A stretch of DNA of 35,223 nt from Streptantibioticus ferralitis. Lineage in GTDB: Bacteria > Actinomycetota > Actinomycetes > Streptomycetales > Streptomycetaceae. Every line of letters starts with the position of its first letter. Within the stretch, counting starts at the first letter, position 1. The stretch lies in contig NZ_JARHTQ010000052.1 of assembly GCF_029223525.1 (NCBI RefSeq), positions 1 through 35,223 on the forward strand, in the 5' to 3' direction. The notes beneath the pieces were generated by a model, which saw only the letters and a list, made by a program, of their open reading frames with translations, searched no databases and was not told the DNA's origin. Position numbers and translations under genes: made by a program. Shown here one piece after another: positions 187 to 17,572 of this stretch.

Positions 187-2067
187 TCAGCTCGGTACCG
201 CGGCCAGCGCCAACTCGGTGAGCAGCGTGCCGACGATGCGCGGACCGTCCTGGGTGAGCACCGACTCGGCGTGGAACTGCATGGACGCGAAGTGCGGGCC
301 GCGCAGCGCGTGCACCTCGCCGGTCAGCGGATCCCGGCTGGCCTCCACCCGTCCCACGTCCGGGCAGTCGACATGGTCGGAGACGCTGCGCGCGGCGAAC
401 GTGTTGTAGAAGCCGACCCGTTCACGCCGTCCGAACAGGTCGATCTCCCGTTGCACGCCCTGGTTCGGCACGTCCCTGCGCACCAGGTCGAACCCGAGCG
501 CCAGGCTGAGCACCTGGTGGCTCAGGCACACCGCGAGGAACGGCCGCCGCGCTTCGAGCAACGCCGCGGTCGCGGACCGCAGATGGGCGATCTTGGGATG
601 GTTCTCCTCCCGTGGATCTCCCGGGCCCGGTCCCATGACGACCAGGTCATAGCCCTCGAAGGAGTACGGCTCGTCGAAGCGCCGTACGGCCACCTCAAGG
701 TCCATGGACCGCAGTTGCTGCTCGATCATGGATGTGAAGGTGTCCTCCGCGTCCACCACCAGCACCCGCCGCCCCGCCAACTCCGGTGCTTGACACGGGC
801 GTTCCGCGTCACCCGCCAGCCAGAAGTCGGCGATGGCCGTGTTGCGCCGCTCAAGTGCCGCCCGCACGCTGGGGTGCTGGCCGAACCGCGCCGGACCGCT
901 CTCCAGTGCCGACAGCAGTCCGGCCGCCTTGGCACGGGTCTCGGCGACCTCGGACTCCGGGTCGGAGTGCCGTACGAGCGTGGCGCCCACCCCGATCCGC
1001 ATCCGGCCGCCGCTGTCGATGTCGGCGGTACGGATGAGGATGGAGGAGTCCAGGGTGCGCTCGCCGTGCTCATCGCGGCTGATGAGCGCGACGACCCCGC
1101 TGTAGTAGCCGCGGCCCCGCGGCTCGTACCGGCCGATCACCCGGCAGGCGCTCTCCAGCGGAGAACCGGTGACGGTGGGCGCGAACATCGTCTCCCGCAG
1201 GATGTCGCGCGGGTCGCTGGCGGTGCGCCCCTCGATGAAGTACTCGGTGTGCGCGAGGCGGGCCATCTCCTTCAGGTACGGGCCCACCACCCGGCCGCCG
1301 CCGTCGCAGATGCGGGCCATCATCTTGAGTTCCTCGTCGACGACCATGTACAGCTCGTCGGCTTCCTTGCGGTCGGCCAGGAAGTCCATCACCTCCGGCA
1401 GGGTCGGCCCGGACGGCGGATAGCGGTACGTACCGCTGATCGGGTTCATCACGGCGGTACCGCCGCGCACGCTGATGTGCCGCTCGGGGGTGGCGCCGAC
1501 GAACGTCCGGCTGCCGGTGTGGACGATGAACGTCCAGTACGCCCCGGACTCCCGCTCCAGCAGCCGCCGGAAGAAGGCCAGCGCGCTGAGCGGGGTGTAG
1601 TCGGAGATGTCGGCGACGAAGGAGCGCTTGATGACGAAGTTCGCTCCCTCCCCCGTACCGATCTCATCGGCGATGACCCGGCGGACGATGTCGGCGTACG
1701 CCTCGTCATCCACATCGAAGTCGCCGCCCGCCAGCCCGATCGGCACATCGGGGATCCGGTCCAGCAGATCCCCGGACCGCACGGTCGCCTGACCGGTGAC
1801 GGTCATCGCGATCAGCGGTGCCCCGTCGTCGGCGGCGACGAAGCCGCGCTCCGTGATCTGCCGGTACGGCACGATCGCCAGCACCTCATGGCCTGGGCCG
1901 GACGATCCACCGGGCAGCGGTATCCCGGCCAGCGTGTCCGGAGTGGACACCTCGCCGACGAGAACGTCCAGCGCGCCAGGGCCGGTCGACTCCGGCCGGT
2001 GCAGTACGGCGAAGGGCGGCGGCGTCGGTGCCAGCACCTGCCGGAACAGCTCTTCGGCGGCGGTCAT
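187..2067 (-). CDS. phzE: PhzE-like 2-amino-2-deoxyisochorismate (ADIC) synthase
   Basis: This 626-residue protein fuses an anthranilate-synthase component I-type chorismate-binding domain (about residues 110-385) to a C-terminal class I glutamine amidotransferase (about 433-620). The amidotransferase triad is visible: Cys514 in an AVCLSHQ motif, and His599 and Glu601 in FHAES. PhzE-type enzymes aminate chorismate at C2 and release ADIC without the pyruvate elimination that anthranilate synthase performs. The fused order (synthase, linker, GATase) and the length fit PhzE. The ATG overlaps the stop codon of the PhzD-like gene upstream by 4 bp, so translation is probably coupled. With the PhzD-like lyase and the SDR next door it should feed 3-hydroxyanthranilate. 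No phenazine assembly genes are present, so phenazine is not the likely product. Confidence 0.9.
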
Positions 2068-2744
2068 ACGGCGGCCTCCCGCAGGGCGTACCCCGTCACA
2101 CCGGCGGCGAACGGGTCGAGCTGGCCGGCGACCCTCTTGGCGGTGGTGACCACGGCGCAGCGTTCGGCCGCGTACTCCAGGGCCAGCCGGTGGTATTCGG
2201 GGGAGAAGTCACCGACGGCGTCGGCGACCAGGAAGGGCTGGATGTCGTTGGTGAAGGCCTCCACCGCGGTCATCAGCACACCGACATGCGCGTACACACC
2301 GCCGATGACCAGCTGGTCGCGGTCATGGGCGCGCATCCGCTCCAGCAGACCGGACTGGAAGAAGGCGCTGTAGCGCCACTTGGTGAACACCCAGTCGCCC
2401 GGTGCGGGAGCGAGCGCGTCGACAACCTGCCGATCGGCGGGCGTGGTGCGCATCCCGGGTCCCCAGAAGTCCTTGAGCAGACCGCGCTGTTCCTCGGTCA
2501 TGCCGCCGGGTTGCGCCGTGTACGCCACTGGCATGCCGAGTTCGGTGGCCCGCTCACGCAACAGGGCGAGGTTGCGTACCAGTTCATGCCGCAGGTCGTC
2601 AGGAAAGGGCTTCAGAAAGTAACGCTGCATGTCGTGGATGAGCAGCACCGCGCGGTCCGGATCGACCGTCCACGGTGCGGTGCTGTCGGGCAGATCGCCC
2701 GCTGTGGGCATCGGGTAGGGCTCGATGGCGGGTATGCCGGCCAT
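2064..2744 (-). CDS. phzD: PhzD-like isochorismatase/ADIC lyase
   Basis: The 226-residue protein is of the isochorismatase-like hydrolase fold and close to PhzD in length and N-terminal pattern ([15 protein letters not shown]). Asp38 (IHDMQRYF) and Lys122 (FTKWRYSAF) fall at the same numbers as the catalytic pair I recall for Pseudomonas PhzD, and there is no cysteine-hydrolase nucleophile. PhzD removes pyruvate from ADIC to give 2,3-dihydro-3-hydroxyanthranilate. I chose the ATG at 2744 because GAGAGGA lies just upstream and the protein then starts like PhzD. The open frame extends further upstream, but only through a structured intergenic region. Its stop overlaps the start of the PhzE-like gene (ATGA). 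Confidence 0.92.
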
Positions 2745-2797
2745 GGCGTCCTCTCGTGGTCTCGTCGCTGTCGTGATGTGTGCCGCTTGGCGCCGGA

Positions 2798-2933
2798 GCC
2801 TGTCCGGCGGATCCTGGCCGGGTCGCGGTCTGCTCGGTGCCGTCGCGGCGCGGGGCCGCGACGGTGGGGAGCGGCGGTCACGTGAGGGCCGCGGCCCACG
2901 GGCAGACTGATGCCGAGGATCCGCCGGACAGGC
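2798..2933. repeat. 18-bp perfect inverted repeat with nested hairpins
   Basis: An 18-bp sequence at 2798-2815 is exactly repeated in inverted orientation at 2916-2933. Between the arms lie a 9-bp hairpin (2840-2848 with 2856-2864) and a 12-bp palindrome (2886-2897). The element fills most of the 190-bp gap between the SDR and PhzD-like genes, ending 1 bp from the SDR stop codon. As RNA it could fold into a closed multi-branch structure. It could be an intercistronic processing or attenuation element, or a short MITE-like insertion with terminal inverted repeats. Confidence 0.75.
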
Positions 2934-2934
2934 G

Positions 2935-3705
2935 TCAGGCACCCAGGCCCGCGCCTCCGTCGACCGTCAGGACATGCAAGGTGATATGCGCTGCCCGGTC
3001 GGACAGCAGGAACACGACGGCATCGGCGATGTTCGACGGGCGGGCCAGCCGCCCCAGCGGAATGCCCACCCGGAACGCGTCGGGCCGGCCCTCTATGGTT
3101 CCGGCCGGGCCGGACTCGTCATGCCACATCGAGCTGAGCATCGGTGTGTCGGTGGAACCGGGCGCCACCACATTGCAGCGGATCCCGTACTTGGCGACCT
3201 CCAGGCCAAGGCTCTTGGTGAACATCGATGCCGCCGCCTTGGACGCGGCGTACGCGGCCATCTCGGTACGCGGCGTGCCCGCGGCATTGGACGCCACGGT
3301 GACTATCGCGCCGCGCATCCGCGGTGCCATGCGGTTGACCACCGCCCGGGACAGATGGAAGACCCCGTTCACATTGACCCCGAAGGTGGTCGACCAGTCC
3401 TCGTCGCTGAAGTCCCTGACCTCGCCGAGTCGCAGCACCCCCGCGGCGTTGACCAGGTACTCCAGTGGACCCAGCCGCGTCTCCACCGCGTCGACCATGG
3501 CATCGACATCCGCGCTGTCGGTGACGTCGGCGGGGAACGCCTCGACCCGCAGGCCGTCGGCGGTCAGCTTCTCCACGACGTCCCGCAGCCCGGCTGCGTC
3601 CCGGTCAACGGCGGCGACGGCGGCGCCGCGCTCGCCCAGCGCGCGGACCACGGCCGTGCCGATTCCGCCCGCTGCCCCTGTGACAAGGGCGACCTTGTTA
3701 TCCAT
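2935..3705 (-). CDS. EntA-like SDR, predicted dihydro-3-hydroxyanthranilate dehydrogenase
   Basis: A 256-residue classical short-chain dehydrogenase. It has the Rossmann motif TGAAGGIG (9-16), the NAAG motif (86-89), Ser139, and the catalytic Tyr152/Lys156 of a YxxxK motif. It resembles 2,3-dihydro-2,3-dihydroxybenzoate dehydrogenase (EntA/DhbA). Because it sits directly upstream of PhzD- and PhzE-like genes, its likely substrate is 2,3-dihydro-3-hydroxyanthranilate, oxidised with NAD+ to 3-hydroxyanthranilic acid. That assignment follows precedent in benzoxazole clusters that make 3-HAA from chorismate; the sequence alone does not prove the substrate. The start has GGAGGT 8 nt upstream. Confidence 0.85.
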
Positions 3706-3777
3706 TGCTGTGGACCTCCCTACGGCCGTCCCTGCTCCGGAACGGCAGTTGTGTGGTGGCTCGGCCGTGCCTGCGGA

Positions 3778-4965
3778 TCAGGCCGCCCAAGCCGAGACCA
3801 CCGATATGGCCTGACCTGGGTTGAGCCGCGGGTCGCAGAAGCTCGTGTACTTGTCGCCGACCTGGTCGATCCCGTACTCGTTGGTGACGCACTCGGTGAC
3901 GTCGTCCGGCGTGGTCTCCAGATGCAGTCCGCCCGCGATGCCACCCGCGGACCGGACGGCGCACTGGAAGTCCCGCACCTCCCGTACGACGGTGTCGATG
4001 AAGCGCGTCTTGAGCCCATCGGCGGCGGTGACCGTGTTGCCGTGCATCGGGTCGCTGAGCCAGATCACCGGATGGCCGGCCGCCCGTACCGCCTTGACCA
4101 GCGGCGGCAGCCGGTCGGCCACGGCCGCGGCGCCCATCCGGGCGATCAGCGTGAGCCGCCCTCGTTCGCGCCACGGGTCGAGCCGCTCGCACAGCTCCAG
4201 CAGCTCGTCGACCGGCATACCCGGGCCGACCTTGCAGGCGACCGGGTTGGCGACCTCGGCGAGCAGGGCGACATGGGCGCCGTCCACCTGCCGGGTGCGT
4301 TCGCCGATCCACGGCCAGTGCGTCGAGGCGAGGTACTGCCGCCCGTGCTCGTCCTGGCGCAGCATCGGGATCTCGTAGTCGAGCAGCAGCGCCTCATGGC
4401 TGGTCCACACCGGCGGGCAGATGCCCGACCGGCGGGACGGGTTGAGCCAGCCGAGGTGGGTCATGGCTTCGCTCGCCGCCTCGTAACCGGCGAGCAGCCG
4501 TCGTGGGTCGGGCCTCCTCAGATAGGGGTCGGGTTCCGGGCTGTTGACCATGTGGCCGCGGTAGACCTGGAGTTCGCGGCCGCCGACCTGTTCGGTGGGT
4601 TTGGAGCGGGGCTTGCCGAACTGTCCGGCCATCCGTCCGGCGCGTACCACCGGACGGTGCGTGATCATCTTCATCACGCCGGCCAGCACGTCCAACAGAC
4701 CCGCCTTGCGGGCGACATAGCCCGCGGTGCACTCGGCCGGGTCCTCGGCGCAGTCACCCGCCTGCACCACGCGCGCCTCGCCCGCGGCGACGCCGGCCAG
4801 CAGGGCGCGCAGCCGACGCACGTCCGAGGCGCTGACCAGCGCCGGGCGGGCCGCCAACTCGTCGGTCACCCAACGGAGTTGGCTGCCTTCCCAGTCGGGC
4901 TGCTGCAGTACGGGTTTGGAACGGATCGATTCGATACTGGAGGGGCTGACAAGAGCGTTGTCCAC
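3778..4965 (-). CDS. Class II (plant-type) DAHP synthase
   Basis: The 395-residue protein is a type II 3-deoxy-D-arabino-heptulosonate-7-phosphate synthase, like PhzC and AroF of actinomycetes. Recognisable segments include QAGDCAE, GRMAGQFGKPRS, a THWPWIGERTRQ stretch, NPVACKVGPG and LSDPMHGNT. It condenses PEP and erythrose-4-phosphate and supplies extra shikimate flux to the 3-HAA branch. The true start is probably the GTG at 4965, with AGGAGA 6 nt upstream. The frame stays open for another 48 codons to 5109, but that part is arginine-rich and unlike the family. The protein is shorter than primary-metabolism class II enzymes (about 450-460 residues), and its N terminus begins close to the core. 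This fits a pathway-dedicated copy. Confidence 0.9.
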   Translation of the reverse strand: MDNALVSPSSIESIRSKPVLQQPDWEGSQLRWVTDELAARPALVSASDVRRLRALLAGVAAGEARVVQAGDCAEDPAECTAGYVARKAGLLDVLAGVMKMITHRPVVRAGRMAGQFGKPRSKPTEQVGGRELQVYRGHMVNSPEPDPYLRRPDPRRLLAGYEAASEAMTHLGWLNPSRRSGICPPVWTSHEALLLDYEIPMLRQDEHGRQYLASTHWPWIGERTRQVDGAHVALLAEVANPVACKVGPGMPVDELLELCERLDPWRERGRLTLIARMGAAAVADRLPPLVKAVRAAGHPVIWLSDPMHGNTVTAADGLKTRFIDTVVREVRDFQCAVRSAGGIAGGLHLETTPDDVTECVTNEYGIDQVGDKYTSFCDPRLNPGQAISVVSAWAA

Positions 4966-5106
4966 TGGTGTCTCCTGGTGTCTCCCAAAGCGGAGGTGTC
5001 TCGCGGAGCGGAGGTGCGACGAGCACGGCCCCCGCCGCGGATCGCGTACGGGGGCATCCCGTAGTGCTCCACGCCGAACCGGTACGGCTTTCTCCGATCC
5101 AGCGCG

Positions 5107-5136
5107 CATCAGGGCGCCTCAGGGCGCATCAGGGCC
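5107..5136. repeat. Three short 10-bp direct repeats
   Basis: Three near-identical 10-bp units (CATCAGGGCG, CCTCAGGGCG, CATCAGGGCC) run through the end of the esterase gene. The 163-bp gap between the esterase and the DAHP synthase also holds a small hairpin with 6-bp arms (5047-5052 and 5058-5063). The significance is unknown. Confidence 0.5.
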
Positions 5137-7057
5137 TCGGCACCCAGCCCACGTCGTCCCAGAACCGCAGTTGGCGCGGATGCGGTGTGGTGGCGAGGCG
5201 CGCAAGGCGCACGACTTCGGCGTCGCGGCGGGGGGCGCGGGGGGCTTCGGTGGCTTCGGTGGCTTCGGTGCTTCCGGTGGCTTCGGTGGCTTCGGAGCTT
5301 TCGGTGGCTTCGGTGGCTTCGGAGCTTTCGGCGGGCTCGGCCGTCTTGGTGGCTTCGGCGCCATCGCCGGTTTCCGCACCGAGGATCAACGTGGTGGGTC
5401 GGTCGGGATGGAAGACCGGCCAGTCCGGGACGCCTACCGCGCTCGGTACGTCATCGCGGGCGAAGGCGGCCACGAGGTCGATGAAGATGTCGGAGATCCG
5501 CCGCTCCAACGGGCCGTCCCCGTAGGCCCAGGCGTTCTCCGGGATGCCGAAGGTGCCGAACAGGAACCTTGAGGTGGCCTCGTGCGGGGTGCCGAACGCG
5601 GGCGGGCGCGTGGGATGCGCGAACTCCATCACGTACTGGGCGCGGGTGCCCTCCGCGACCTGCTCGTCGGGGGCGGTGGCTGGTTCGCCATCGCCGGCGT
5701 GTCTCCCGTCGCCGACGTGCATCTCGGCACTGGCGTGCTTCTCGGCACTGGCGTGCTTCTCGGCACTGGCGTGCTTCTCGGCACTGGCGTGCTTCTCGGC
5801 ACTGGCGTGCTTCTCGGCACTGGCGTGCTTCTCGGCGAGCCGGACGATCGGGTACCGGAAGAGCCCGTCGCCCCAGATCTCGGTCCACAGCGATACCGGG
5901 TCCAGCGGCAGCCCGTCGGCCGCGGCGGCCTCCCGGTAGGCGGCCAGACAGTCGCCCACCAGGCGCTCCGAAACTCCGACCAGCCGCCTGTCCAGCACCG
6001 CGGCCACGGCCGCCCGTAGTTCTGCCTCGTTGGTGGGAGCCGGGGGTGCCGGAAGCGCGGACAGGCCGGGAACGGTGAAGAACGCACCCTCGGTGCGGGT
6101 GTACACGACCATCGTCGGCAGGCCGAGCGCGGGAAGCCGGTGATCGAAGCCCCCCATCCACCGGCCGTCACACACCGGCCCCCGGTACTCACGCCCGCTG
6201 TCCACCAGGCGCGTCGACGGGCTGCCGGAGAACACCGTCTGCCACGCGTCGAGCAGCGCTCCCGCGGGCACGTCCCGTAACCCGCGTACATCGGTGCCGA
6301 GCCGACGCGCGATGGCCGCGTAGACGGTACGGGAGTCCTCGGCGGTCAACGCGACCGCGGGCACCCACACATGGCACGGGCTGATCGGGATGATCCGGCG
6401 GATGAGCGACCGCACCTGAGGCAGCAGCGCGAGCTGCCAGGCGCTCGCTCCCCCCGCCGAGGTACCGCTCAGCGTGATGTTGTCGGGGTCGCCGCCGAAG
6501 GCCGCGGCGTTCCGCCGCACCCAGCGCAGCAACTCCGCCTGGTCCTGCAGTCCCCAGTTGGCGAACGACCCGGTGTCCGGGTCCGCGAGATCCTCGTGCA
6601 GCCCAAAACCAAAAGGTCCCAGGCGATAGTTGAACGTCACCACAACGAGGTCACCGCGCAACGCCGGACGAGCTCCGTCGTACGTCGGAAGTTCGCCGCC
6701 GCCGATCTGCCAGCCGCCGCCGTGGATGTACACCAGTACGGGCCGGGAACCCCGGATATCCGGCGTCCAGACATTGGCGTAGAGGGCGTCCTCGCGGCTT
6801 TCCGGTACGCCGGGTTGGAGAAACGGCGGTACGAAGCGCGTGGCATCCCGCACCCCGTCCCAGCAAACCGGCGAACGCGGCGAAGCGAATCGCAGCGCCC
6901 CCAACGGCGGCCGGGCGTAAGGCACTCCGCGGAACACGGTGTACTCCCGGCACCGCTCTCCCGCGACAAGCCCTTCGGTGGTGCGTACGACGACGTCGGA
7001 GGGGCGGCGGGCGGTGGACGAGGAGCCCGGAGGTGTCAGCACATACGGTGTCGCCAT
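5129..7057 (-). CDS. Type B carboxylesterase with two expanded repeat insertions
   Basis: A 642-residue carboxylesterase of the cholinesterase/type B family. It has the oxyanion-hole motif HGGGW (112-116), nucleophile Ser200 in GTSAGG, and probable acid Glu323 and His492 (GTPHEAT). There is no signal peptide, so it is probably cytosolic. The family is usually about 500 residues. The extra length comes from six exact AEKHAS repeats (about 409-444) and a Thr/Glu/Ala-rich tract (about 566-605), both in frame and both between conserved segments. Leu260 is encoded by TTA. As first gene of the 3-HAA operon it may hydrolyse or rearrange a late ester or thioester intermediate; the substrate is unknown. 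The ATG follows the stop of a possible small ORF by one base. Confidence 0.85.
   Translation of the reverse strand: MATPYVLTPPGSSSTARRPSDVVVRTTEGLVAGERCREYTVFRGVPYARPPLGALRFASPRSPVCWDGVRDATRFVPPFLQPGVPESREDALYANVWTPDIRGSRPVLVYIHGGGWQIGGGELPTYDGARPALRGDLVVVTFNYRLGPFGFGLHEDLADPDTGSFANWGLQDQAELLRWVRRNAAAFGGDPDNITLSGTSAGGASAWQLALLPQVRSLIRRIIPISPCHVWVPAVALTAEDSRTVYAAIARRLGTDVRGLRDVPAGALLDAWQTVFSGSPSTRLVDSGREYRGPVCDGRWMGGFDHRLPALGLPTMVVYTRTEGAFFTVPGLSALPAPPAPTNEAELRAAVAAVLDRRLVGVSERLVGDCLAAYREAAAADGLPLDPVSLWTEIWGDGLFRYPIVRLAEKHASAEKHASAEKHASAEKHASAEKHASAEKHASAEMHVGDGRHAGDGEPATAPDEQVAEGTRAQYVMEFAHPTRPPAFGTPHEATSRFLFGTFGIPENAWAYGDGPLERRISDIFIDLVAAFARDDVPSAVGVPDWPVFHPDRPTTLILGAETGDGAEATKTAEPAESSEATEATESSEATEATGSTEATEATEAPRAPRRDAEVVRLARLATTPHPRQLRFWDDVGWVPRP
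5234..5360. repeat. In-frame 9-bp (TEA-coding) repeat tract
   Basis: Imperfect repeats of the 9-bp unit GGCTTCGGT, interspersed with GGAGCTTTC variants, encode the Thr-Glu-Ala/Glu-Ser-Ser tract of the esterase (residues about 566-605). All length changes keep the reading frame. Confidence 0.85.
5723..5830. repeat. Six perfect 18-bp tandem repeats inside the esterase
   Basis: Six identical head-to-tail copies of CTCGGCACTGGCGTGCTT encode AEKHAS repeats on the minus strand. A degenerate copy lies at 5705-5722 and a partial copy follows at 5831. The unit appears to have expanded from a native RLAEKHAS helix segment of the enzyme. Perfect identity indicates a recent expansion. Confidence 0.97.
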
Positions 7058-7058
7058 C

Positions 7059-7561: not shown

Positions 7562-7756
7562 CGCGGTCCTCACACCCGGGCCCGCGCGATCCTCGCGGAC
7601 TCCGGCACGGTCCCCCACCCCGCCGAGATCGCCTCCGCCCTCAGGGCCCGCGGCTACGCCGTACAGCCCGGAGACTGCTTCTCCACCATCGCGGAACATG
7701 AACATCCGGGGCGGCGCCCAGGCCTTCTGCTGGCTGAACAAGCACATGTTCCATAG
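7562..7756 (+). pseudogene. Coding-like fragment of unknown family
   Basis: A 64-codon open stretch between stops has no clear start and shows strongly biased third positions through about 7700. It translates to a sensible protein-like segment containing ILADSGTVPHPAEIASALRA and then ARGYAVQPGD. It looks like the remains of a degraded gene, not random intergenic sequence. I do not recognise the family. Confidence 0.35.
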
Positions 7757-7758
7757 GG

Positions 7759-7779
7759 CCCGGACCGCATCTGTCCGGG
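7759..7779 (+). terminator. Hairpin in the divergent control region
   Basis: Perfect 7-bp arms (CCCGGAC and GTCCGGG) enclose a 7-nt loop just after the coding-like fragment. A 13-bp direct repeat (CCGGGGCGGCGCC) occurs at both about 7706 and about 7775. It could be a terminator or an operator. Confidence 0.35.
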
Positions 7780-7872
7780 GCGGCGCCTGCGTCTGCACCG
7801 CTGACACGGGGGCGCCCGCGGGCTCAGGGCGTATGCCGACCGCCGATCAGCACACCCGTGGGCAGCAAGAAG

Positions 7873-7907
7873 TTGACCATTCTGACCGTGTCCTGACGCA
7901 GCTGACC
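7873..7907 (+). promoter_or_regulatory. Four spaced TGAC direct repeats upstream of the aminotransferase
   Basis: TTGACC (7873), CTGACC (7882), CTGACG (7893) and CTGACC (7902) recur in the same orientation at 9-11-9 bp spacing, close to one helical turn, about 70-100 bp upstream of the first gene of the rightward operon. Direct repeats at this spacing are typical of activator-binding promoter elements such as SARP sites. The cognate regulator is not evident. Confidence 0.4.
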
Positions 7908-7976
7908 ACTGTCGGGCCTTACGCCGCACGGGAACGTCCGGCTTTGATGGGACGCATGTTGGACAGGAGCTACGTA

Positions 7977-9227: not shown

Positions 9228-9236
9228 CGTCCAGGG

Positions 9237-10358
9237 ATGAACGTGAGTGGTAGCACGACCGCCGAGACAGCCTTACGGGTATCGGAGGCCGCGCCCGGGC
9301 TCGCTGCCGCGCGGCGGGGCCCGGCCGTGACCGTGCCGATCAGCGCACTGGACATGTCCTGCCCGCTGCGCAGCGGGGGCCAGGATCCGGAACACGTCAG
9401 GGCGCTGGCCATGCTGGACGCCTCGCTGCTGCCGCCTGTCCTGGTGCACCACCCGACGATGCGTGTGCTCGATGGGACGCACCGGGTGCAGGCTGAACTC
9501 CTGCGCGGCGGTACGCAGATCCGTGTGGAGTTCTTCGAGGGCACAGAGGAGGAGAGCTTCGTCCTGGCGGTGCGCTCGAACGTCGCACACGGACTGCCGC
9601 TGCCGCTGGCCGACCGCAAGGCGGCGGCCGCCCGGATACTGCGTGCCTACCCGCAGTGGTCGGACCGGTCGATCGGCTCGGTGTCGGGGCTGTCCCCGAA
9701 GACCGTGGGCGTCATCCGGCGCCGTTCAGCCGCGGAAGATCCTCAGCTGAACGGGATGGGCAGGCTGGGCCGGGACGGCCGTACGCACCCGACCAGCGTG
9801 GCCGAAGGGCGGCTGTACGCCAGCAAGTTGATCGGCGAGCGGCCGCACGCTTCGCTGCGGGAGATCGCCAGCTCTGCGGGAATATCGCTGGGCACCGCCC
9901 AAGACGTGCGCAAGCGGCTGGAGAACGGCCAGGATCCGGTGCCCGCGCCGCGTGGCGGGGCACACCGGGCGGCCGGCACCTCTCCCCGCACCCCGGTCGC
10001 CCCATGGCGCATCAAGGGCGGAGCAGCCGGCAGGGACGCCTCCGGCGGTGCCGGTGCCGGTACCGGGGACAGCCTCCCCAGGCCGGCGTCCCGGGGCACC
10101 GGCCCAGAGGTGCGGCGTCCGCCGTTGCCAGAGCGGCTGCGGTCCCTGAAGCAGGACCCCGCCCTGCGCTCTACCGACATGGGGCGCGTGCTGCTCCGGC
10201 TGCTCAGCTCCCACGAGATCCCGCTCGCCAATTGGCAGGCCCTCGTCGGCGGGGTCCCGCCGCACTGCGCCCGGGCGGTGGCCGACGTAGCGGGCGAATG
10301 CGCACGCATTTGGCAGGAGTTCGCGCGCGAGATGGCCGGGCGCGCCCCGGAACGCTGA
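9237..10358 (+). CDS. StrR-like ParB/HTH pathway activator (TTA-containing)
   Basis: A 373-residue regulator with an N-terminal ParB/Srx-like domain (about 32-105), including the conserved PPVLVHHPTMRVLDGTHR region. A helix-turn-helix segment lies near 142-165 and a second HTH-like segment near 205-228; the C-terminal part is variable. This is the layout of StrR/NovG-type cluster-situated activators. Codon 13 is TTA (9273-9275), so synthesis should depend on bldA tRNA. It lies 9 bp after the aminotransferase gene and is likely cotranscribed with it. The start could be the ATG at 9237 or the GTG at 9243. It is the best candidate for the main activator of the locus. Confidence 0.85.
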   Translation: MNVSGSTTAETALRVSEAAPGLAAARRGPAVTVPISALDMSCPLRSGGQDPEHVRALAMLDASLLPPVLVHHPTMRVLDGTHRVQAELLRGGTQIRVEFFEGTEEESFVLAVRSNVAHGLPLPLADRKAAAARILRAYPQWSDRSIGSVSGLSPKTVGVIRRRSAAEDPQLNGMGRLGRDGRTHPTSVAEGRLYASKLIGERPHASLREIASSAGISLGTAQDVRKRLENGQDPVPAPRGGAHRAAGTSPRTPVAPWRIKGGAAGRDASGGAGAGTGDSLPRPASRGTGPEVRRPPLPERLRSLKQDPALRSTDMGRVLLRLLSSHEIPLANWQALVGGVPPHCARAVADVAGECARIWQEFAREMAGRAPER

Positions 10359-10458
10359 TCTCGAAGGCCGAACCGCCCCAACCCAGGGCGCCCCCCACCC
10401 CCGGTACCGCCGGGCGCCTTCGTACCCCCGGACAGCGGATGTTGGAGGTAATTTCCCC

Positions 10459-10719
10459 TTGTCGACTCATGAGACCGCCGGCCTGCTGAGCACGGTGACC
10501 GAAACCCTGGCCGAAATAGGCTTTGACGAAGCGGAGTTGGCGCAGGCCACTTCGGACTGGAAGCTCCGTGCCGAACTCGGGCTCAGCTCGGTGGAGACCA
10601 CCGAGCTGCAGCTCGCGCTCAAGCAGCGGTTCGGCGTGACGGTCGACCTGTGGGACCAGGACGACTACACGCTGGGACAGCTGGCCGAGCTCGTCGCCGA
10701 GCAGCGGAGCCGGTCATGA
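10459..10719 (+). CDS. Free-standing acyl carrier protein
   Basis: An 86-residue ACP with the phosphopantetheine attachment site in LGLSSVETTEL (Ser44 likely). It starts at a TTG with GGAGGT 9 nt upstream. It directly precedes and overlaps (ATGA) an aryl-AMP ligase, so it is the likely acceptor of the activated aryl acid, as in starter-loading systems. The acyl-ACP would then be used by the KS-AT-ACP module. Confidence 0.9.
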   Translation: MSTHETAGLLSTVTETLAEIGFDEAELAQATSDWKLRAELGLSSVETTELQLALKQRFGVTVDLWDQDDYTLGQLAELVAEQRSRS

Positions 10720-12410
10720 CGGCGCCGGTGCGCGGACGCGCCGCGCTGGACACGGAGGTGCTCGCCATCGCCGCCGATCGTGGCGCGGCGTACCGCGACG
10801 CCGGGTTATGGCGGCAGGAGCGGGTGAGCGATCTGGTGCTCGACCGGTGCCGTGCCCAGCCCGATCGCTGTGCCATCGTGGACGGCGACCGCCGGATGAC
10901 GTACGAGGAACTGGCACAGGCGGTGCACGAAGCGGCCGACCGGCTGCGCGCCCGCGGCATCGCCCCCGGCGACCGGGTCTGCGTACAACTGCCCAACTGC
11001 CTTGAGTACGTCGTCCTGGTGCTGGCGCTGCTGCACGTCGGGGCGCCGCCGGTGCTGATCCTGCCGGCGTTCCGGGAGCACGAGCTGAACCACATCGTGG
11101 CGGTCACCCGGCCCGTCGCCCTCGCCGTGGACACCGGAACCCGCCGCTTCGACCAGCTCGGGCTGGCCCGCAGACTGCGAGACCGCCATCCCGGCCTGCG
11201 CCATCTGTTCGTACGGGGAGCGAGGCAGCTCGCCGAGGGCGAGACGGATCTGGTGCGGCTATGCCGCCCGGGGCCCGGCGGTACGGCGCCGGAGGCCGGC
11301 CGGGCCGACGCCGCCGCACCTGGTGCCACTCCTCAGGATGCCGCCGTCTTCCTCCTCTCCGGCGGCACCACCGGGCTGCCAAAGGCGATCCCGCGGGCCC
11401 ACGAGGGGTACGGATACATGATCCGTACCGCTGTCGGCATCGCGGGGATCACCTCGGAGTCGGTCAATTTGGCGGTCATGCCCGCCGCCCATGGCTTCGT
11501 CATGAACTGCCCGGGGGTGCTCGGCACTCTGATCGCGGGCGGCCGGGTGGTGCTCGCAACCCCCAACAGCCCGCGCGCCGCCTTCGAGTTGATCGAGCGG
11601 GAGCGAGTGACCCACTGCACCCTCGTACCGACCCTGCTGCTCCAGTGGCTGGCCACCGCGCCGGAGTCCGGGGCCGATCTGAGCAGCCTGAAGGTGATCC
11701 AGGTCGGCGGCGCCCGGCTCAACGCGGACGCGGCCGCCCGTGTCCGCACGGAGCTGGGCGCCACAGTCCAGCAGTGCTACGGCATGAGCGAAGGACTGCT
11801 GTGCTTCACCCGCCTCGACGACCCTGACGAGGTCATCCACACCACCCAGGGCAGCGCAGCCAGTGCGATGGACGAGTTCCGGGTCGTCGACGCCAACGGC
11901 AAGCCCGTGGCCCAAGGGAAGGTGGGCGAACTGCTGACCCGCGGCCCCTATACCGTGGCCGGCTACTACCGCAATCCCGAGGCCACCGCCGCGGCGTTCA
12001 CACCCGACGGGTTCTACCGCACCGGCGACCTGGTGCGCCTGGACCGCGGGGGCAACGTCGTCCTGGAGGGGCGGGTACGGGACTCCATCAACCGCGGCGG
12101 CGAGAAGATCTCCGCGGAGGAACTGGAGTCCATCGCCCAGCGCCACCCGCGGATCGTCCAGGCAGCCGGGGTCGCCATGGCGCACGAACTCTACGGCGAG
12201 GCGGTGTGCCTGTACGCCGTCCTCGACGGCGAGGGAACGGTCGGCCTGAGCGAGCTGCGCCGGTTCCTGGAACAGCAGGGCCTGGCCGCCTTCAAGTTCC
12301 CCGAGCGGCTGGAGCTCGTGGACGCGCTGCCGCTGACCGGCATCGGGAAGATCGACAAGAAGGCCCTCCGGGAGGACATCGCCGGCCGGCTCACGGCCGA
12401 GGCGCACTGA
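10716..12410 (+). CDS. DhbE/EntE-type aryl-acid adenylating enzyme
   Basis: A 564-residue stand-alone AMP ligase with phosphate-binding loop LLSGGTTGLPKA (213-224), the acid-binding region around 256-267, an acyl-adenylate motif FYRTGDL, and catalytic Lys545 (TGIGKIDK). It should activate an aromatic carboxylate and load it on the adjacent ACP. Where DhbE has HNYPLSSPG, this protein has HGFVMNCPG (259-267). The Asn that contacts the ortho-hydroxyl of DHB is Gly, and the residue opposite the 3-hydroxyl is Cys, as in salicylate ligases. This argues against 2,3-dihydroxybenzoate and fits picolinate better, with 3-HAA still possible. Residue roles are from memory of DhbE/EntE work. Codon 31 is TTA (10806-10808). 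The ATG overlaps the ACP stop. Confidence 0.88.
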   Translation: MTAPVRGRAALDTEVLAIAADRGAAYRDAGLWRQERVSDLVLDRCRAQPDRCAIVDGDRRMTYEELAQAVHEAADRLRARGIAPGDRVCVQLPNCLEYVVLVLALLHVGAPPVLILPAFREHELNHIVAVTRPVALAVDTGTRRFDQLGLARRLRDRHPGLRHLFVRGARQLAEGETDLVRLCRPGPGGTAPEAGRADAAAPGATPQDAAVFLLSGGTTGLPKAIPRAHEGYGYMIRTAVGIAGITSESVNLAVMPAAHGFVMNCPGVLGTLIAGGRVVLATPNSPRAAFELIERERVTHCTLVPTLLLQWLATAPESGADLSSLKVIQVGGARLNADAAARVRTELGATVQQCYGMSEGLLCFTRLDDPDEVIHTTQGSAASAMDEFRVVDANGKPVAQGKVGELLTRGPYTVAGYYRNPEATAAAFTPDGFYRTGDLVRLDRGGNVVLEGRVRDSINRGGEKISAEELESIAQRHPRIVQAAGVAMAHELYGEAVCLYAVLDGEGTVGLSELRRFLEQQGLAAFKFPERLELVDALPLTGIGKIDKKALREDIAGRLTAEAH

Positions 12411-12471
12411 ACCTCGGCGCGGCCCGCACACGCCGCACCTCCTCCCCCGAACACCGTCATGAGGTGAACGC

Positions 12472-13230
12472 ATGTATCTCGGGCAAACGACTCCGCTGAT
12501 CAAGCACGCCGCCGGTGCCGCATCGCCCCGCCACCAGCTCGTCTGCTTTCCGTACGCCGGCGGCGGCGCGTCCTTCTACCGCCCCTGGCGGGACGAACTC
12601 CCGCCGGACGTCGACCTGTTGGCGGTGCAGTATCCCGGCCGTGAGGAGCGCATCGACGATCCGCTGATCGACGACATGGACGAGCTCGCCGACCTTCTCG
12701 CCGCCGAGCTCGCCCCGTTGCTGGACCTGCCGTTCACGTTCTTCGGGCACAGCATGGGGGCCGCGGTCGGGTACGAGATCGCCCGCAGGTGGGAGCGGTC
12801 GGGCTACCCGACGCCGGACCGGTTGATCGTCTCCAGCCAGTTCGCCCCGCCCCGGATCCACGCTGGTGACCTCTTGCGGCGCGACGACGACGGGGTCCTC
12901 GACGAGCTCGTCCGGCTGGGCGGCATCCCCGGGAGCGCGTGCGAGAGCCCGGAGCTGGTGCGGCTGATCGTGTCGGTCGTGCGCAACGACTACCAGGTGC
13001 TGGAGTCCTGCCGGTTCGGCGACGACGCCCCAGCGCTGGACCTGCCCATCACCGCGTTCTGTGGAGCGGACGATCCGGCGGTGACACCGCAGGACGTACG
13101 CGAATGGGCCGACTTCACCCGTGTCTGCTTCACGAACCGGATCTTCGACGGCGGGCACTTCTACCCCCGTGAACGGCTCACCGAGATCGTGGCCGCGGTC
13201 ACGGAGCTGCTCGCCCGGCCCGCCCGCTGA
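12472..13230 (+). CDS. Type II (editing) thioesterase
   Basis: A 252-residue alpha/beta-hydrolase of the GrsT/TEII family. Nucleophile Ser94 lies in GHSMGA, an acidic residue in GADDP (200-201), and His229 in GGHFY. The N-terminal FPYAGGGA motif is typical. Such enzymes clear aberrant acyl groups from carrier proteins, here the free ACP and the PKS ACP. As no TE domain is fused to the PKS, it could also release the product. GAGGTG lies 5 nt before the ATG. Confidence 0.9.
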   Translation: MYLGQTTPLIKHAAGAASPRHQLVCFPYAGGGASFYRPWRDELPPDVDLLAVQYPGREERIDDPLIDDMDELADLLAAELAPLLDLPFTFFGHSMGAAVGYEIARRWERSGYPTPDRLIVSSQFAPPRIHAGDLLRRDDDGVLDELVRLGGIPGSACESPELVRLIVSVVRNDYQVLESCRFGDDAPALDLPITAFCGADDPAVTPQDVREWADFTRVCFTNRIFDGGHFYPRERLTEIVAAVTELLARPAR

Positions 13231-13292
13231 TGCCCCGCCACCTGCCCTGCCCCTGAGCCCGCCCCCGCACCGTGAAGAAATGAGTAACGCAC

Positions 13293-14492
13293 ATGAGCGA
13301 CAGCACCAAGCACTACGACCTCATCGTGATAGGAGGCGGGCCGATCGGCCTGTCCACGGCCTGGCAGGCCGCCCGGCGCGGCGGCCGCAAGGTACTCGTC
13401 CTGGAGCAGTACGGCTTCATGAACGAGCGGGGCGGGTCGAGCGGCGCCGAGCGGCACTGGCGTCTCCAGTACAACGAGCGGGACATCTTCGCGCTGACCC
13501 TTGAGGCCCTTCCGATGTGGCGGGAGCTGGAGTCGCTGACCGGCCGCAAACTGCTCCACGAGGTGGGCAGCCTGTGGTTCGGCGACACCGAGGTGGAGAC
13601 CAACGAGGGCCAGATCTCCGGGACCGCACGTGCCATGGACGCGCTGGACGTGCCGTACGAGTGGCTGACAGCCCCGGAGATCGAGCGCCGCTACGGCTTC
13701 ACCGGCCTCCCGGGCCACTACGAGGGCTTCCTCCAGCGGGACGGCGGCGCCATCGATGTACGCGGCACGATCGGCGCTGTCTTCCAGCTCTCCCAACAGC
13801 ACGGGGCGGTGCTGCGTGGCAACGAGCGGGTACTGGCGGTGAACCCGGATCCCGATGGCGTCACGGTACGGACGAAGGAGCACACCTACCGCTCGGACAA
13901 GGTCGTGCTCACGAACGGCGCCCACGCCAACGACATACTGGGGGCGTGGGGCTCGGGACTGGGCGTGGGCCTGTACGAGCTGCCGCTGGTCACCCTCCGC
14001 CAGCGCCGGGCCGAGCCCGGCAGGCCGTTCTGGTTCGCCTTCCAAAAACCCACGGCCGAGGACACCAACCTCTTCTACGGTTTCCCGCCCAACCCGTGGT
14101 CGACCAGCGAAGACATCCGGCTCGGCCCGGTCTTCGAGGTCGACGCGCTGGACCACGCCGACGACGCGACGGGCATACCCGCGCCGCGGCCCGTGAAGCG
14201 GGTGACCGACTGGGCCACCGCGCACATGCCCTGGGCCGACCCGCAGCCGACCGAGCTGTCCACCTGCCTGGCGATGCTGCCCACGAACCCCGCCCGGCAG
14301 TTCTTCCTCGGTGACGCCGGCACGCTGGTGGACGGTGGCGAGAACGTCGTGGTGTCCGTGGCCGGCTGGGGCTTCAAGTTCACCCCGCTGTGGGGGAAGA
14401 TCTGCGCCGATCTCGCCTTCGACGGAACCACCGCGTACGACATCAGCCGGCACGCTCTCACTCCCACCGGGCCGTCCGGGATCGTCAAATGA
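13293..14492 (+). CDS. NikD/monomeric sarcosine oxidase-type flavoenzyme
   Basis: A 399-residue FAD amine oxidase. The dinucleotide-binding motif GGGPIG lies at 14-19, followed by an acidic strand end (LEQYG). Cys325, in STCLAMLPTN, occupies the position of the cysteine that covalently binds FAD in sarcosine oxidase and NikD. In AGWGFKF, Trp359 and Lys362 follow Cys325 by 34 and 37 residues, the spacing I recall between Cys321, Trp355 and Lys358 of NikD; sarcosine oxidase has His where the Trp is. NikD oxidises piperideine-2-carboxylate to picolinate. This and the aminotransferase in the same operon suggest picolinate formation from lysine. Its stop overlaps the PKS start (ATGA). Confidence 0.82.
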   Translation: MSDSTKHYDLIVIGGGPIGLSTAWQAARRGGRKVLVLEQYGFMNERGGSSGAERHWRLQYNERDIFALTLEALPMWRELESLTGRKLLHEVGSLWFGDTEVETNEGQISGTARAMDALDVPYEWLTAPEIERRYGFTGLPGHYEGFLQRDGGAIDVRGTIGAVFQLSQQHGAVLRGNERVLAVNPDPDGVTVRTKEHTYRSDKVVLTNGAHANDILGAWGSGLGVGLYELPLVTLRQRRAEPGRPFWFAFQKPTAEDTNLFYGFPPNPWSTSEDIRLGPVFEVDALDHADDATGIPAPRPVKRVTDWATAHMPWADPQPTELSTCLAMLPTNPARQFFLGDAGTLVDGGENVVVSVAGWGFKFTPLWGKICADLAFDGTTAYDISRHALTPTGPSGIVK

Positions 14493-17400
14493 CCCTGCGC
14501 GACGACGACCTCACCAGGAACCTGGCCGCCACCGACGTCGCCGTCGTCGGGATGGCGGGCCGCTTCCCCGGCGCCGAGGACATCGACGCCTACTGGCGCA
14601 ATCTGCGGGACGGCGTCGAGTCCATCACGCGGCTGGCAGAGGAGGAACTGCTCGCCGAAGGCATCGAGCGCGCGGAGTTCGAGCGGCCGGAGTATGTACC
14701 AGCCGCCCCTCTCCTGGACGGTCCGGACCTCTTCGACGCGCGGTTCTTCGGCTTCAGCGCGCGGGAGGCAGCCCTCCTGGACCCGCAGCAGCGCCTGTTC
14801 CTGGAGTGCGCCTGGCACGCCCTGGAACACGCCGGCATCGACCCGGCGACGGTGCGCTCCGGCGGGGTCTTCGCGGGCGCGAACATGCCCGCGTACCTGA
14901 TGTCGAACCTGCTGGGCGGCCGGCGGATCGTGCTGGACTCCACCGTCTTCGAACTGCAGATCCACAACGACAAGGACTACTTGGCTACCCGCACCGCCCA
15001 TCAGCTCGGCTTCACCGGGCCCGCGCTGTCGGTGCAGACGGCCTGCTCCACCTCTCTGGTCGCCGTGCACGAGGCCGCGCAGTCGCTGCACACCGGGGCC
15101 TGCGATGTCGCCCTCGCGGGCGGCGTGTGTGTGAGGGTGCCGCACCGGGTGGGATACCGCTACGAGCGCGGTCTCATCTACTCGCCCGACGGGCACTGCC
15201 GCCCGTTCGACGCCGAGGCCCAGGGCACCGTCTTCGGCAGCGGCGTCGGCGTGGTCGTACTGAAGCGACTCACGGATGCGGTGGCCGACGGCGACCGGGT
15301 GCTGGCCGTGCTCAAGGGCTCCGCAGTCAACAACGACGGCTCCGACAAGGTCAGTTACACCTCGCCCAGCGTCACCGGGCAGGAGCGGGTGGTCCTTCAG
15401 GCGCTGCGCGCGGGCGGGGTGGACGCCCGGACCGTCACCGCCATCGAGGCGCACGGCACCGCCACCCCCATCGGCGACCCCATCGAGATCAACGCGCTGA
15501 CCCGCGCCCACCGGCACTCCACCCAGGACACCGGCTACTGCGCCATCGGCTCAGTGAAGTCCAACATCGGGCACCTGGAGTCCGCGGCCGGCATCGCGAG
15601 CCTGATCAAGGCCGTACTGCAGCTGCAGCACCGCGAGTTGGCGCCCAGCCTGCACTTCCGTACGCCCAACCCGCGGATCGACTTCGGCGCGACACCGTTC
15701 CGGGTGAACACCGAACGGGTCGCCTGGGAGCCGGGCGACGTGCCGCGCCGGATCGGTGTCAGCTCCTTCGGTATCGGTGGCACCAACGCCCACGTGGTCC
15801 TCGAAGAGGCGTCGGCCGCGTGCACGGCTCCCGAGCCGGTGGCCACTGGGCCCGCCACGGACCGGCCACAGCTCCTCCTGCTCTCCGCCAGGACACCGCA
15901 GGCACTGGAGGCGGCGACGGACCGGCTGGCCAGGCGGTTCGCCGGGCCGGACGCCCCGGCGGTCGCCGACGCCGCGTACACCCTGCAGACCGGCAGGCGG
16001 CCGATGCGTCACCGCCGCGCGGTGCTCGTCCCGCCCGACCCGGCGCGGGCGGCGTCGCTGCTCGGTGGCGCGGACCCCGACCGCGCACGCCAGGGGAACG
16101 CCGGCACCGGTCGGCCGCGCACGGTGTTTCTGTTCCCCGGCCAGGGGACGCAGTTCCCCAAGATGGGCCACGGCCTGTACACGGCGGACCCGGGCTTCGC
16201 GGCCGACATCGACCGCTCGGCCCGGCTGCTGCACCCCGATCTCGGCTTCGACCTGCGCGAGGCGCTGTACGGCACGGCAACCGACGCCGAGCGGCTCACT
16301 TCGACGGAGGTGGCGCAGCCCGCGCTGTTCACCACCGAGTACGCGCTGGCACGGCTGCTGCTGCGCTGGGGTGTGGCGCCTGATGACATGGTGGGCCACA
16401 GCGTCGGCGAGTTCACCGCTGCGTGCGTGGCCGGGGTGCTGCCGCTGGAGGACGCGCTGCACCTGGTCGCGCTGCGCGGAAAGCTGATGCGCGAGCAGCC
16501 GCCGGGCGCGATGCTGTCGGTCGAGGCCGCCGAGGAGACGCTCGTACCGCTCCTGCCGCAAGCGGTGTCCGTCGCCGCGGTCAACGCGCCGGCCCTGTGC
16601 GTGGCCGCCGGGCCCGAGGAGGGCGTGGCCGCACTGGAGCGCGCACTGGCCGACGCGGGAGTGGCGGCACGGCGGCTGCATACCTCGCACGCCTTCCACT
16701 CAGCGATGATGGACCCGGTGGTCGGCCCGCTGACCGAGGCGGTTCGCGGCGCCGCCCTCGTTCCGGGCGAGCGGCCGTTCGTCTCCGGGGTGACCGGGGA
16801 GGCGATCACCCCCGGGCAGGCCACGGACCCGGCGTACTGGGGCAGCCACGCCCGCCAGCCGGTGCGCTTCGCCGACGCGGTCCGTACCGCGGCGTCCAGG
16901 GGCCGTACCGTGCTGGTCGAGGTTGGTCCCGGCACCGCGTTGTCCACCCTGTCCAGGGCGGCCCTGGCCGACCGGCGGGGGATCTCCACCGTCCGCACGA
17001 TGCGCCGCCCCGGCGAGGCGGGCGACGACCTGGAGACGCTGCTGCTCGGTGTCGGGGACCTGTGGCTGGCGGGCGGCGAGATGCGGTGGCACGCGCTGCA
17101 CGACGGGCCACGGCGCAGGGCCGCGCTGCCGGGCTACCCGTTCCAGCGCGAGCGCCACTGGATCGGGCCGGGCGGCGGGCGGAGCGCCGGGACGGCCGGC
17201 TCGCCCGCAGAAGCCGCCGATGTACGGCCCATGGCCCCGGAAGCGAAGGCAACGCCCTCGGCCGAGGAGCGCTCGACGCGACCCGCCGGGCTGCGGTCCG
17301 GCTACGCCGCCCCGCGCGACGCGGCCGAGAAGCGGATCGTGGCGCTGTGGGAGGCGATCCTCGGGTTCGAGGGCATAGGGATCCACGACGACTTCTTCGA

Positions 17401-17572
17401 GCTGGGCGGGCACTCCCTGCTCGGCACCCAGTTGGTGAACCGGCTACAGGACGAGCTGGGGGTGACGGTATCCCTGCGGAAGCTGTTGTCGCACCCGACG
17501 CCCGCGAAGCTCGGTGCGGTTGTCACGCTCGCCATGGCGGACCCGGCAGCCGGAGCGGCCGAGTCGCCATAG
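14489..17572 (+). CDS. Single-module type I PKS (KS-AT-ACP)
   Basis: A 1027-residue polyketide synthase. The KS covers about 14-440, with Cys186 in TACSTS, His322 in AHGTA and His362 in KSNIGH. The AT covers about 545-835, with GQG at 551-553, Ser638 in GHSVGE, and the malonyl-type HAFH motif at 734-737. The ACP covers about 943-1010, with Ser976 in GGHSLL. All active-site residues are present. There is no KR, DH, ER or TE, and too little space between AT and ACP for a reductive domain. The KS has a cysteine and is not a KSQ loading type, so it should accept an acyl starter from another ACP, extend it once with malonyl, and leave a beta-keto thioester. Iteration cannot be excluded. Confidence 0.95.
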   Translation: MTLRDDDLTRNLAATDVAVVGMAGRFPGAEDIDAYWRNLRDGVESITRLAEEELLAEGIERAEFERPEYVPAAPLLDGPDLFDARFFGFSAREAALLDPQQRLFLECAWHALEHAGIDPATVRSGGVFAGANMPAYLMSNLLGGRRIVLDSTVFELQIHNDKDYLATRTAHQLGFTGPALSVQTACSTSLVAVHEAAQSLHTGACDVALAGGVCVRVPHRVGYRYERGLIYSPDGHCRPFDAEAQGTVFGSGVGVVVLKRLTDAVADGDRVLAVLKGSAVNNDGSDKVSYTSPSVTGQERVVLQALRAGGVDARTVTAIEAHGTATPIGDPIEINALTRAHRHSTQDTGYCAIGSVKSNIGHLESAAGIASLIKAVLQLQHRELAPSLHFRTPNPRIDFGATPFRVNTERVAWEPGDVPRRIGVSSFGIGGTNAHVVLEEASAACTAPEPVATGPATDRPQLLLLSARTPQALEAATDRLARRFAGPDAPAVADAAYTLQTGRRPMRHRRAVLVPPDPARAASLLGGADPDRARQGNAGTGRPRTVFLFPGQGTQFPKMGHGLYTADPGFAADIDRSARLLHPDLGFDLREALYGTATDAERLTSTEVAQPALFTTEYALARLLLRWGVAPDDMVGHSVGEFTAACVAGVLPLEDALHLVALRGKLMREQPPGAMLSVEAAEETLVPLLPQAVSVAAVNAPALCVAAGPEEGVAALERALADAGVAARRLHTSHAFHSAMMDPVVGPLTEAVRGAALVPGERPFVSGVTGEAITPGQATDPAYWGSHARQPVRFADAVRTAASRGRTVLVEVGPGTALSTLSRAALADRRGISTVRTMRRPGEAGDDLETLLLGVGDLWLAGGEMRWHALHDGPRRRAALPGYPFQRERHWIGPGGGRSAGTAGSPAEAADVRPMAPEAKATPSAEERSTRPAGLRSGYAAPRDAAEKRIVALWEAILGFEGIGIHDDFFELGGHSLLGTQLVNRLQDELGVTVSLRKLLSHPTPAKLGAVVTLAMADPAAGAAESP

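Follow-up and report, generated by a model that had tools for sequence, protein, structure and literature searches.

Proferrorosamine of Erwinia rhapontici is built from picolinate, one malonyl unit added by the type I polyketide synthase (PKS) RosF, and O-acetylserine joined by the pyridoxal phosphate (PLP) enzyme RosC, after which the ring closes spontaneously (PMC11481915). Siderochelin is made along the same lines from 3-hydroxypicolinate and methylmalonyl; the AsnB-type enzyme SidA leads to its carboxamide, and its release is ascribed to an unknown thioesterase (PMC11481915). The penzonemycin (pzm) cluster of Streptomyces sp. SCSIO 40020 carries 3-hydroxyanthranilate (3-HAA) genes together with CreD, CreE and CreM genes (PMC9323291). 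The window analyzed, 35,223 bases with a G+C content of about 70%, is the entire contig NZ_JARHTQ010000052.1 (C58) of Streptantibioticus ferralitis, whose genome (8.8 Mb, 110 contigs) is 99.17% complete; its left edge is therefore set by the assembly and does not mark the end of a cluster. The original prediction read positions 187–17572 as divergent operons for 3-HAA and, probably, picolinate, which would be joined through one PKS module in a pathway not described before. Our comparisons with other genomes make it likely that the window instead holds two independent clusters back to back, the end of a 3-HAA cluster and a proferrorosamine-type cluster for a ferrous siderophore.

The left operon (187–7057, minus strand) and the right block, which begins at 7956, are both intact and divergent, with about 900 bases between them. 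A scan of a genome collection with the NikD-type oxidase of the right block alone, a single-protein scan that picks up close relatives only, led to three loci, in Streptomyces albospinus JCM 3399 (91% identity), Streptomyces sp. CT34 (91%) and Streptomyces rimosus NRRL WC-3904 (72%). At E≤1e-70 this protein was found in 4 of 394 genomes of the family and 2 of 394 of the class, the window's genome being counted in each. Genes were called on 55–60 kb around the three named loci, and none of the five left-operon proteins had a match there at 45% identity or more and 60% cover; the only rows below this threshold were short-chain dehydrogenase/reductase (SDR) matches of 34–37% in two genomes (G374 and G147). 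The best genes of S. albospinus, CT34 and S. rimosus resembling 2-amino-2-deoxyisochorismate (ADIC) synthase (55–57%) lie elsewhere in the genome, next to a different 3-deoxy-D-arabino-heptulosonate 7-phosphate (DAHP) synthase (40–41% to the window's); neither PhzD nor SDR was matched within the 20 kb read there. Because 390 of 394 family genomes have an ADIC-synthase match at E≤1e-120, we took these genes to be of the housekeeping type. From the other side, contexts of 20–40 kb were collected around close ADIC synthases of nine other genomes, nine of the many matches listed. At the same identity and cover, right-block biosynthetic proteins occurred in 0 of the 9 contexts, and none of the nine genomes had a NikD match at E≤1e-70. 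In the genomes compared, the genes for 3-HAA and picolinate are thus not inherited together in either direction, which argues for two clusters and leaves the proposed union of the two acids in one product unsupported.

Functions were assigned by Pfam, NCBIfam and solved-structure searches, and these bore out the gene content claimed for 187–17572, including the lysine-to-picolinate logic of the right operon. The first part of the right block, all on the plus strand, holds, judged by sequence, the genes for a lysine-derived picolinate-type starter, together with an aryl ligase and a carrier that would supply a single PKS extension. The DegT-family aminotransferase (likely start 7956, end 9227; PF01041, 309.8 bits on the open reading frame [ORF] 7698–9227) adjoins or lies near NikD in 6 of the 7 NikD loci examined, G147 being the exception. 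It has 423 aa, with the lysine of its SFQNAK motif at residue 189, and VisA has 419 aa with PLP lysine K190 (PMC9854754). On account of this size, the PLP lysine and the NikD linkage we propose that the predicted enzyme is an L-lysine 2-aminotransferase; the homologue in another genome of the family (G066) did not match the short SFQNAK-type pattern. The NikD-type piperideine-2-carboxylate oxidase (13293–14492) is 59% identical to NikD (2oln, E 9.7e-153) and retains the residues aligned to R53, E101, Y258, C321, W355 and K358 of 2oln, which we take to be functional. Between them lie a probable pathway regulator (9237–10358), ParB/StrR-like by eye and with only sub-threshold HTH_23 and HTH_24 matches, a free-standing acyl carrier protein (ACP; 10495–10719; PF00550, 24 bits, cut-off 20.8) that is conserved in the three named loci, and an EntE-type aryl-AMP ligase (10716–12410; TIGR02275, 552 bits, below the equivalog cut-off of 723.55), the proposed picolinate ligase. 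All five NikD-linked ligases (window, S. albospinus, CT34, S. rimosus and G066) have Gly at the position of DhbE Asn235, a residue that presumably acts in the pocket of DhbE-type ligases. The next gene encodes a type II thioesterase (12472–13230; PF00975, 170.7 bits; GHSMG and GGHF motifs), perhaps a candidate for release of a beta-keto acid, and the operon closes with a single ketosynthase-acyltransferase-ACP (KS-AT-ACP) module (14489–17572) in which the KS, AT and carrier motifs are present. Its AT motif is HTSHAFH, the HAFH of which we take to be of the malonyl type, and its carrier has the motif LGGHSL.

The right limit of 17572 set by the original prediction was too short, since the conserved block reaches 29874 with 11 more called genes. 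Codon-based gene calls, for which a purpose-built caller was trained on genes of the window, showed the listed long ORF 19612–21483 to be in the wrong frame and placed two genes there instead. One encodes a cysteine-synthase-like PLP enzyme of fold type II (19850–20842, plus; PF00291, 160 bits; cysteine synthase models below cut-off), which has the loop SGGNMA at the TSGNTG position of cysteine synthase. The other encodes a CysE-type serine O-acetyltransferase (20888–21502, plus), above the cut-off of NF041874 (165.4 bits versus 150) and below that of TIGR01172 (178.7 versus 210.65). These two are preceded by a CGNR zinc-finger regulator (17623–18153, minus; PF11706) and an EmrB/DHA2-like exporter of the major facilitator superfamily (MFS; 18211–19593, plus; below the model cut-off). 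They are followed by a second MFS transporter (21631–22920, plus; PF07690 on ORF 21592–22920) and a predicted protein with no Pfam match above threshold (23112–24476, plus; 56–80% in the relatives), both conserved in the three loci, and by MurB (UDP-N-acetylmuramate dehydrogenase; 24720–25754, plus; NF010478, 287 bits versus 231), which may be a housekeeping neighbour or anchor inside the block. The block ends with the ATP-binding cassette (ABC) ATPase of a siderophore importer (25741–26568, minus; PF00005), two FecCD-type permeases (26618–27601, minus, PF01032, 260.9 bits; and 27721–28728, minus, with no siderophore permease model reaching its cut-off) and a siderophore-binding protein of the Peripla_BP_2 family (28867–29874, plus; PF01497) conserved in the three loci.

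In all three loci the genes stand in the same order: DegT, regulator, ACP, ligase, type II thioesterase, NikD, KS-AT-ACP, CGNR, MFS, MFS, the 23112–24476 homologue, permeases and binding protein. Identity across the block was 79–93% in S. albospinus and CT34 and 49–73% in S. rimosus, where MurB was seen by tblastn only and no ABC ATPase gene was called. S. albospinus and CT34 have the PLP enzyme and acetyltransferase at the corresponding position; the main S. rimosus locus lacks both. Copies of 89% and 91% identity, respectively, as against 49–73% for the rest of the block, lie on another S. rimosus contig (C76), where the gene order is AraC-like regulator, MFS-like gene (both by eye), P450-like gene, AsnB, second copy of the block regulator (75%), PLP enzyme and acetyltransferase. 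This co-location with a second regulator copy makes the pair look like partners of the picolinate-PKS part, with which they probably work. In S. albospinus and CT34 the AraC-MFS-P450-AsnB set flanks the block, on one side or the other (CT34 AsnB, TIGR01536, 496 versus 267 bits; CT34 P450 below the cut-offs of the P450 models), and in the draft assembly of the window genome we found no close copy of it, only three short matches of 67–79% DNA identity; tailoring by P450 and AsnB is therefore probably optional.

A DtxR/DmdR-type iron box is predicted at 28790–28808, between the divergent permease and binding-protein genes, matching at 15 of 19 positions, a score reached anywhere in the window by 3 of 100 mononucleotide shuffles. 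With the strict DtxR consensus, allowing up to 3 mismatches, there was no match in the window. The looser match gains support from orthologous positions in the relatives, as boxes lie between the same two genes in S. albospinus (17/19) and CT34 (15/19), so that the FecBCD set and the box occur at the same position in 3 of 4 genomes. Further boxes precede the AraC-like/MFS-like genes in S. albospinus (16/19), CT34 (14/19) and S. rimosus C76 (14/19), and the latter contig has another, of 16/19, before the MFS-like gene. Iron transport genes thus accompany predicted iron regulation in the window, S. albospinus and CT34.

Gene presence, conservation, the S. rimosus split and the predicted iron boxes are what was observed for the right block, and the chemical steps that follow are inferred from homology together with the schemes published for proferrorosamine and siderochelin. 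Lysine would be converted by the DegT aminotransferase to piperideine-2-carboxylate and by NikD to picolinate, which the EntE-type ligase would load on the free ACP. The KS-AT-ACP module would extend picolinoyl-ACP with one malonyl to 3-oxo-3-(2-pyridyl)propanoyl-ACP, to be released, perhaps via the type II thioesterase. In parallel, the CysE-type enzyme would turn serine into O-acetylserine, from which the cysteine-synthase-like PLP enzyme would form aminoacrylate; the decarboxylating beta-keto acid would attack this as a carbon nucleophile, and the open amino ketone would cyclise spontaneously to 2-(2-pyridyl)-1-pyrroline-5-carboxylate. This compound is proferrorosamine A, also called pyrimine. 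The MFS and FecBCD-type transporters, controlled by iron, would carry its Fe(II) complex out of the cell or back into it. The product would thus be a pyridyl-pyrroline that binds Fe(II). The route from picolinoyl, a C2 unit and O-acetylserine to a pyridyl-pyrroline carboxylate was derived from the gene set before the published pathway was found. As proferrorosamine and siderochelin use a picolinate-type starter, one extender and O-acetylserine, the earlier statement that no such pathway had been described does not hold (PMC11481915).

The left operon, as the original prediction had it, is a complete gene set for 3-HAA synthesis by the DAHP, chorismate and ADIC route, judged from the predicted enzymes. 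It comprises, all on the minus strand, a PhzE-type ADIC synthase with chorismate-binding and glutamine amidotransferase domains (187–2067; PF00425 and PF00117), whose best solved match was 3r74 (E 3.5e-232), which we take to be PhzE; a PhzD-type isochorismatase, the lyase (2064–2744; 3r77 and 1nf9, E about 1e-92; start from the codon-based call); an SDR of the 2,3-dihydro-2,3-dihydroxybenzoate dehydrogenase (EntA/DhbA) type (2935–3705; TIGR04316, 351 bits, cut-off 300), which would form 3-HAA; and a class-II DAHP synthase (3778–5109, start uncertain; PF01474). In front of them, in the same direction, lies a carboxylesterase (5129–7057; PF00135) absent from the original account. It accompanies the left genes in 3 of the 9 contexts (70% in G002, 52–53% in G378 and G350). 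The protein has about six tandem AEKHAS repeats in its middle and EATE-type repeats towards the C-terminus.

Another genome of the genus that lacks NikD (G002) showed how the left operon most likely continues. It has the carboxylesterase (70%), DAHP synthase (94%), SDR (95%), PhzD (89%) and ADIC synthase (90%, on its contig C47), after which come KASIII, some 220 bases from the ADIC synthase, an N-acetyltransferase and, by eye, a flavin mono-oxygenase, and further along PabAB, SRPBCC, a CreM-like ligase and CreE-like and CreD-like genes. The families of these neighbours were scanned mostly on the copies that the window's genome carries on its contig C42. The CreD-like protein of G002 scored 777 bits with the nitrosuccinate lyase equivalog (cut-off 650); the CreE-like protein had no NCBIfam match and was named by eye and by its neighbour; and the CreM-like ligase (AmAvDiazAvaA6, 76.6 bits, cut-off 975) was assigned by homology only. 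A 20-kb stretch of G002 matched C42 (48936–68713) as far as query base 19,261; from query base 19,316 on, it matched the window (C58), starting at position 150 there. C42 is 68,953 bases long, with the diazotisation-type genes filling its end, and the window most likely continues where this contig stops. With the join made through synteny, the 3-HAA genes stand together with CreD, CreE and CreM homologues, as in a 3-HAA diazotisation cluster. Among the nine contexts, the SDR was also present in 7 (not G383 or G171), and CreD and CreE lay within the fetched stretch in 6 of these 7 (not G350). The left operon is thus most likely the cut end of a separate 3-HAA cluster, the remainder of which is on C42. 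Upstream of the main part of the cluster, C42 also carries an extra N-acetyltransferase (38341–39144; 64%) and a CreM-like ligase (40747–42318; 50% to the G002 gene) (locus L097). Molybdopterin nitrate reductase-, NirB- and NarK-like genes, seen by eye, occur with relatives of the left cluster at loci L070-L071, L077-L078 and L075-L076, possibly a second nitrite source beside CreD/CreE. Mycemycin was considered as the left product and dropped, since its cluster draws 3-HAA from tryptophan (PMC5867642).

A single hybrid pathway, in which 3-HAA would be condensed with a picolinoyl-acetyl unit from the KS-AT-ACP module, would resemble A33853, which combines 3-HAA with 3-hydroxypicolinate. The intact, divergent gene sets separated by about 900 bases speak for it, and we nevertheless hold it to be very unlikely in view of the separate inheritance described above, the left operon's own conserved partners on C42, and the fact that the block's one EntE-type ligase is common to relatives without 3-HAA genes there. 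The occurrence of this ligase in genomes with no adjoining 3-HAA operon also led us to drop 3-HAA as a PKS starter towards a hydroxyquinolone. A coupling of the two clusters' products is conceivable, in which the CreM-like enzyme would diazotise 3-HAA (or one of its derivatives) for a Japp-Klingemann-type reaction with picolinoylacetate to a pyridyl hydrazone, much as two separate clusters are coupled in the tasikamides (PMC11705231); the adjacency of the clusters speaks for it, and we consider it extremely improbable.

Two further readings concern the right block by itself. In caerulomycin and collismycin biosynthesis, a nonribosomal peptide synthetase (NRPS) module adds an amino acid after the malonyl extension, and the block could likewise lead to another picolinate-derived product, such as a cysteine-based thiazoline or bipyridine, with an NRPS encoded elsewhere in the genome. 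The CysE and CysK-like genes would supply cysteine as well, and the LGGHSL motif of the module carrier would suit such a product. We regard this as unlikely, because no NRPS was among the called block genes of the window; because the relatives' block genes match those of the window except for one 159-aa gene in S. rimosus; and because the S. rimosus PLP enzyme lies with AsnB and P450-like genes, a better fit to the siderochelin carboxamide logic. The PLP enzyme and acetyltransferase might, on the other hand, serve cysteine supply or stress protection only, the core exporting picolinoylacetate or 2-acetylpyridine as a simple chelator. The absence of the pair from the main S. rimosus locus and the cysteine synthases among the enzyme's best solved matches would agree with this. 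It is nonetheless very improbable, given that S. rimosus retains 89–91% copies beside a second copy of the block regulator and that close copies of the PLP enzyme are rare: one of more than 50% identity was found in 1 of 384 genomes of the family sample (the window's own), with four more at 48–49%, and at E≤1e-60 it was found in 1 of 384 genomes of the class sample. The best hits of a plasmid search with the PLP enzyme reached 48%, in a Streptomyces plasmid cluster with different genes, and a Bacillus plasmid had a match of 37%; no ros-like cluster came up, and a NikD search returned 6 plasmid records, all below 60%. NikD-like FAD oxidases of 32–34% identity were seen on Staphylococcus plasmids, namely NZ_CP067015.1 (1320–2477) and four from Staphylococcus aureus.

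Several observations weigh against the reading of two clusters, one of them of the proferrorosamine type. For the left cluster, there is no exact overlap between the ends of C42 and C58, which are joined by synteny with G002, and 240 bases of C42 plus 149 bases of C58, all GC-rich, extend beyond the match, as against 54 bases in G002. For the right block, the NikD proteins of the window, S. albospinus and CT34 have V at the position of 2oln D276, where those of S. rimosus, G066, G374 and G147 have D. The nearest solved relatives of the PLP enzyme are ordinary cysteine synthases, with low scores, and it may simply supply cysteine; we propose it as a putative RosC/SidD counterpart on its fold family and co-inheritance. 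The main S. rimosus locus has no iron box, and the looser pattern, with 1 match versus 0.21 expected in the window, gave at least one match in 20 of 100 dinucleotide shuffles. Finally, an FAD mono-oxygenase-like gene near the right contig end (34186–35109; PF01494, 27.6 bits, cut-off 22), outside the conserved block, could conceivably be a picolinate hydroxylase.

The pathway type is already known, and the clusters in Streptomyces seem to be additional members; none of the proferrorosamine type was found described for Streptomyces in the literature searched, which included few subscription journals. The comparison across genomes removes a false lead, the hybrid molecule hinted at by adjacency on one contig, in favour of two clusters, and extends the small proferrorosamine/siderochelin family to S. 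albospinus JCM 3399, CT34 and S. rimosus NRRL WC-3904. Release in the siderochelin pathway is attributed by its authors to an unknown thioesterase (PMC11481915), and the thioesterase within the operon is a candidate for that step. The apparently untailored system of the window offers a contrast to those tailored by AsnB and P450 for the study of the cysteine-synthase-like enzyme as a C-C bond former. Elsewhere in the family, a locus in G066 (contig C104, loci L026 and L027) has DegT, NikD (77% to 2oln), ligase and ACP beside a 1902-aa PKS and genes that look FkbH-type by eye, perhaps a picolinate-primed larger polyketide.

With the picolinate pathways of nikkomycin and streptogramin (NikC/NikD and VisA) the window shares a lysine 2-aminotransferase, here a proposed one, and a NikD-type oxidase (PMC4021061, PMC9854754). 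It differs in the use of the acid, which in the window would be the primer of a PKS module. With the pzm cluster, the left operon and C42 share DAHP synthase, ADIC synthase, isochorismatase, SDR, CreD, CreE, a CreM-like ligase and SRPBCC; KASIII, the PF00797-type acetyltransferase, PabAB and the carboxylesterase are not so named in the pzm table, which also lists an acetolactate synthase and an F420 oxidoreductase (PMC9323291). The sid cluster of Amycolatopsis WAC04611 shares with the right block a lysine-derived pyridine acid, a ligase, one extender, a serine O-acetyltransferase and iron transporters; its RosC homologue would correspond to the block's PLP enzyme, and its SidA is likewise matched by AsnB in S. 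albospinus, CT34 and S. rimosus (PMC11481915). It differs in using 3-hydroxypicolinate and methylmalonyl, discrete KS, AT and ACP proteins and the cupin SidB (PMC11481915), whereas in the window KS, AT and ACP form one protein with an AT motif of the malonyl type, and the genome has no close counterparts of AsnB and P450. No picolinate hydroxylase was found among the called block genes, and siderochelin itself was rejected as the product since neither the hydroxylase nor the methylmalonyl extender nor SidA was found. The ros cluster of E. rhapontici P45, as is proposed for the window, combines a picolinate starter, a single type I PKS module, joining of O-acetylserine and ring closure, as recounted in PMC11481915; the block described here, likened to it by logic and not by sequence, occurs in Streptomyces and in the window genome and carries a type II thioesterase and a FecBCD-type importer.

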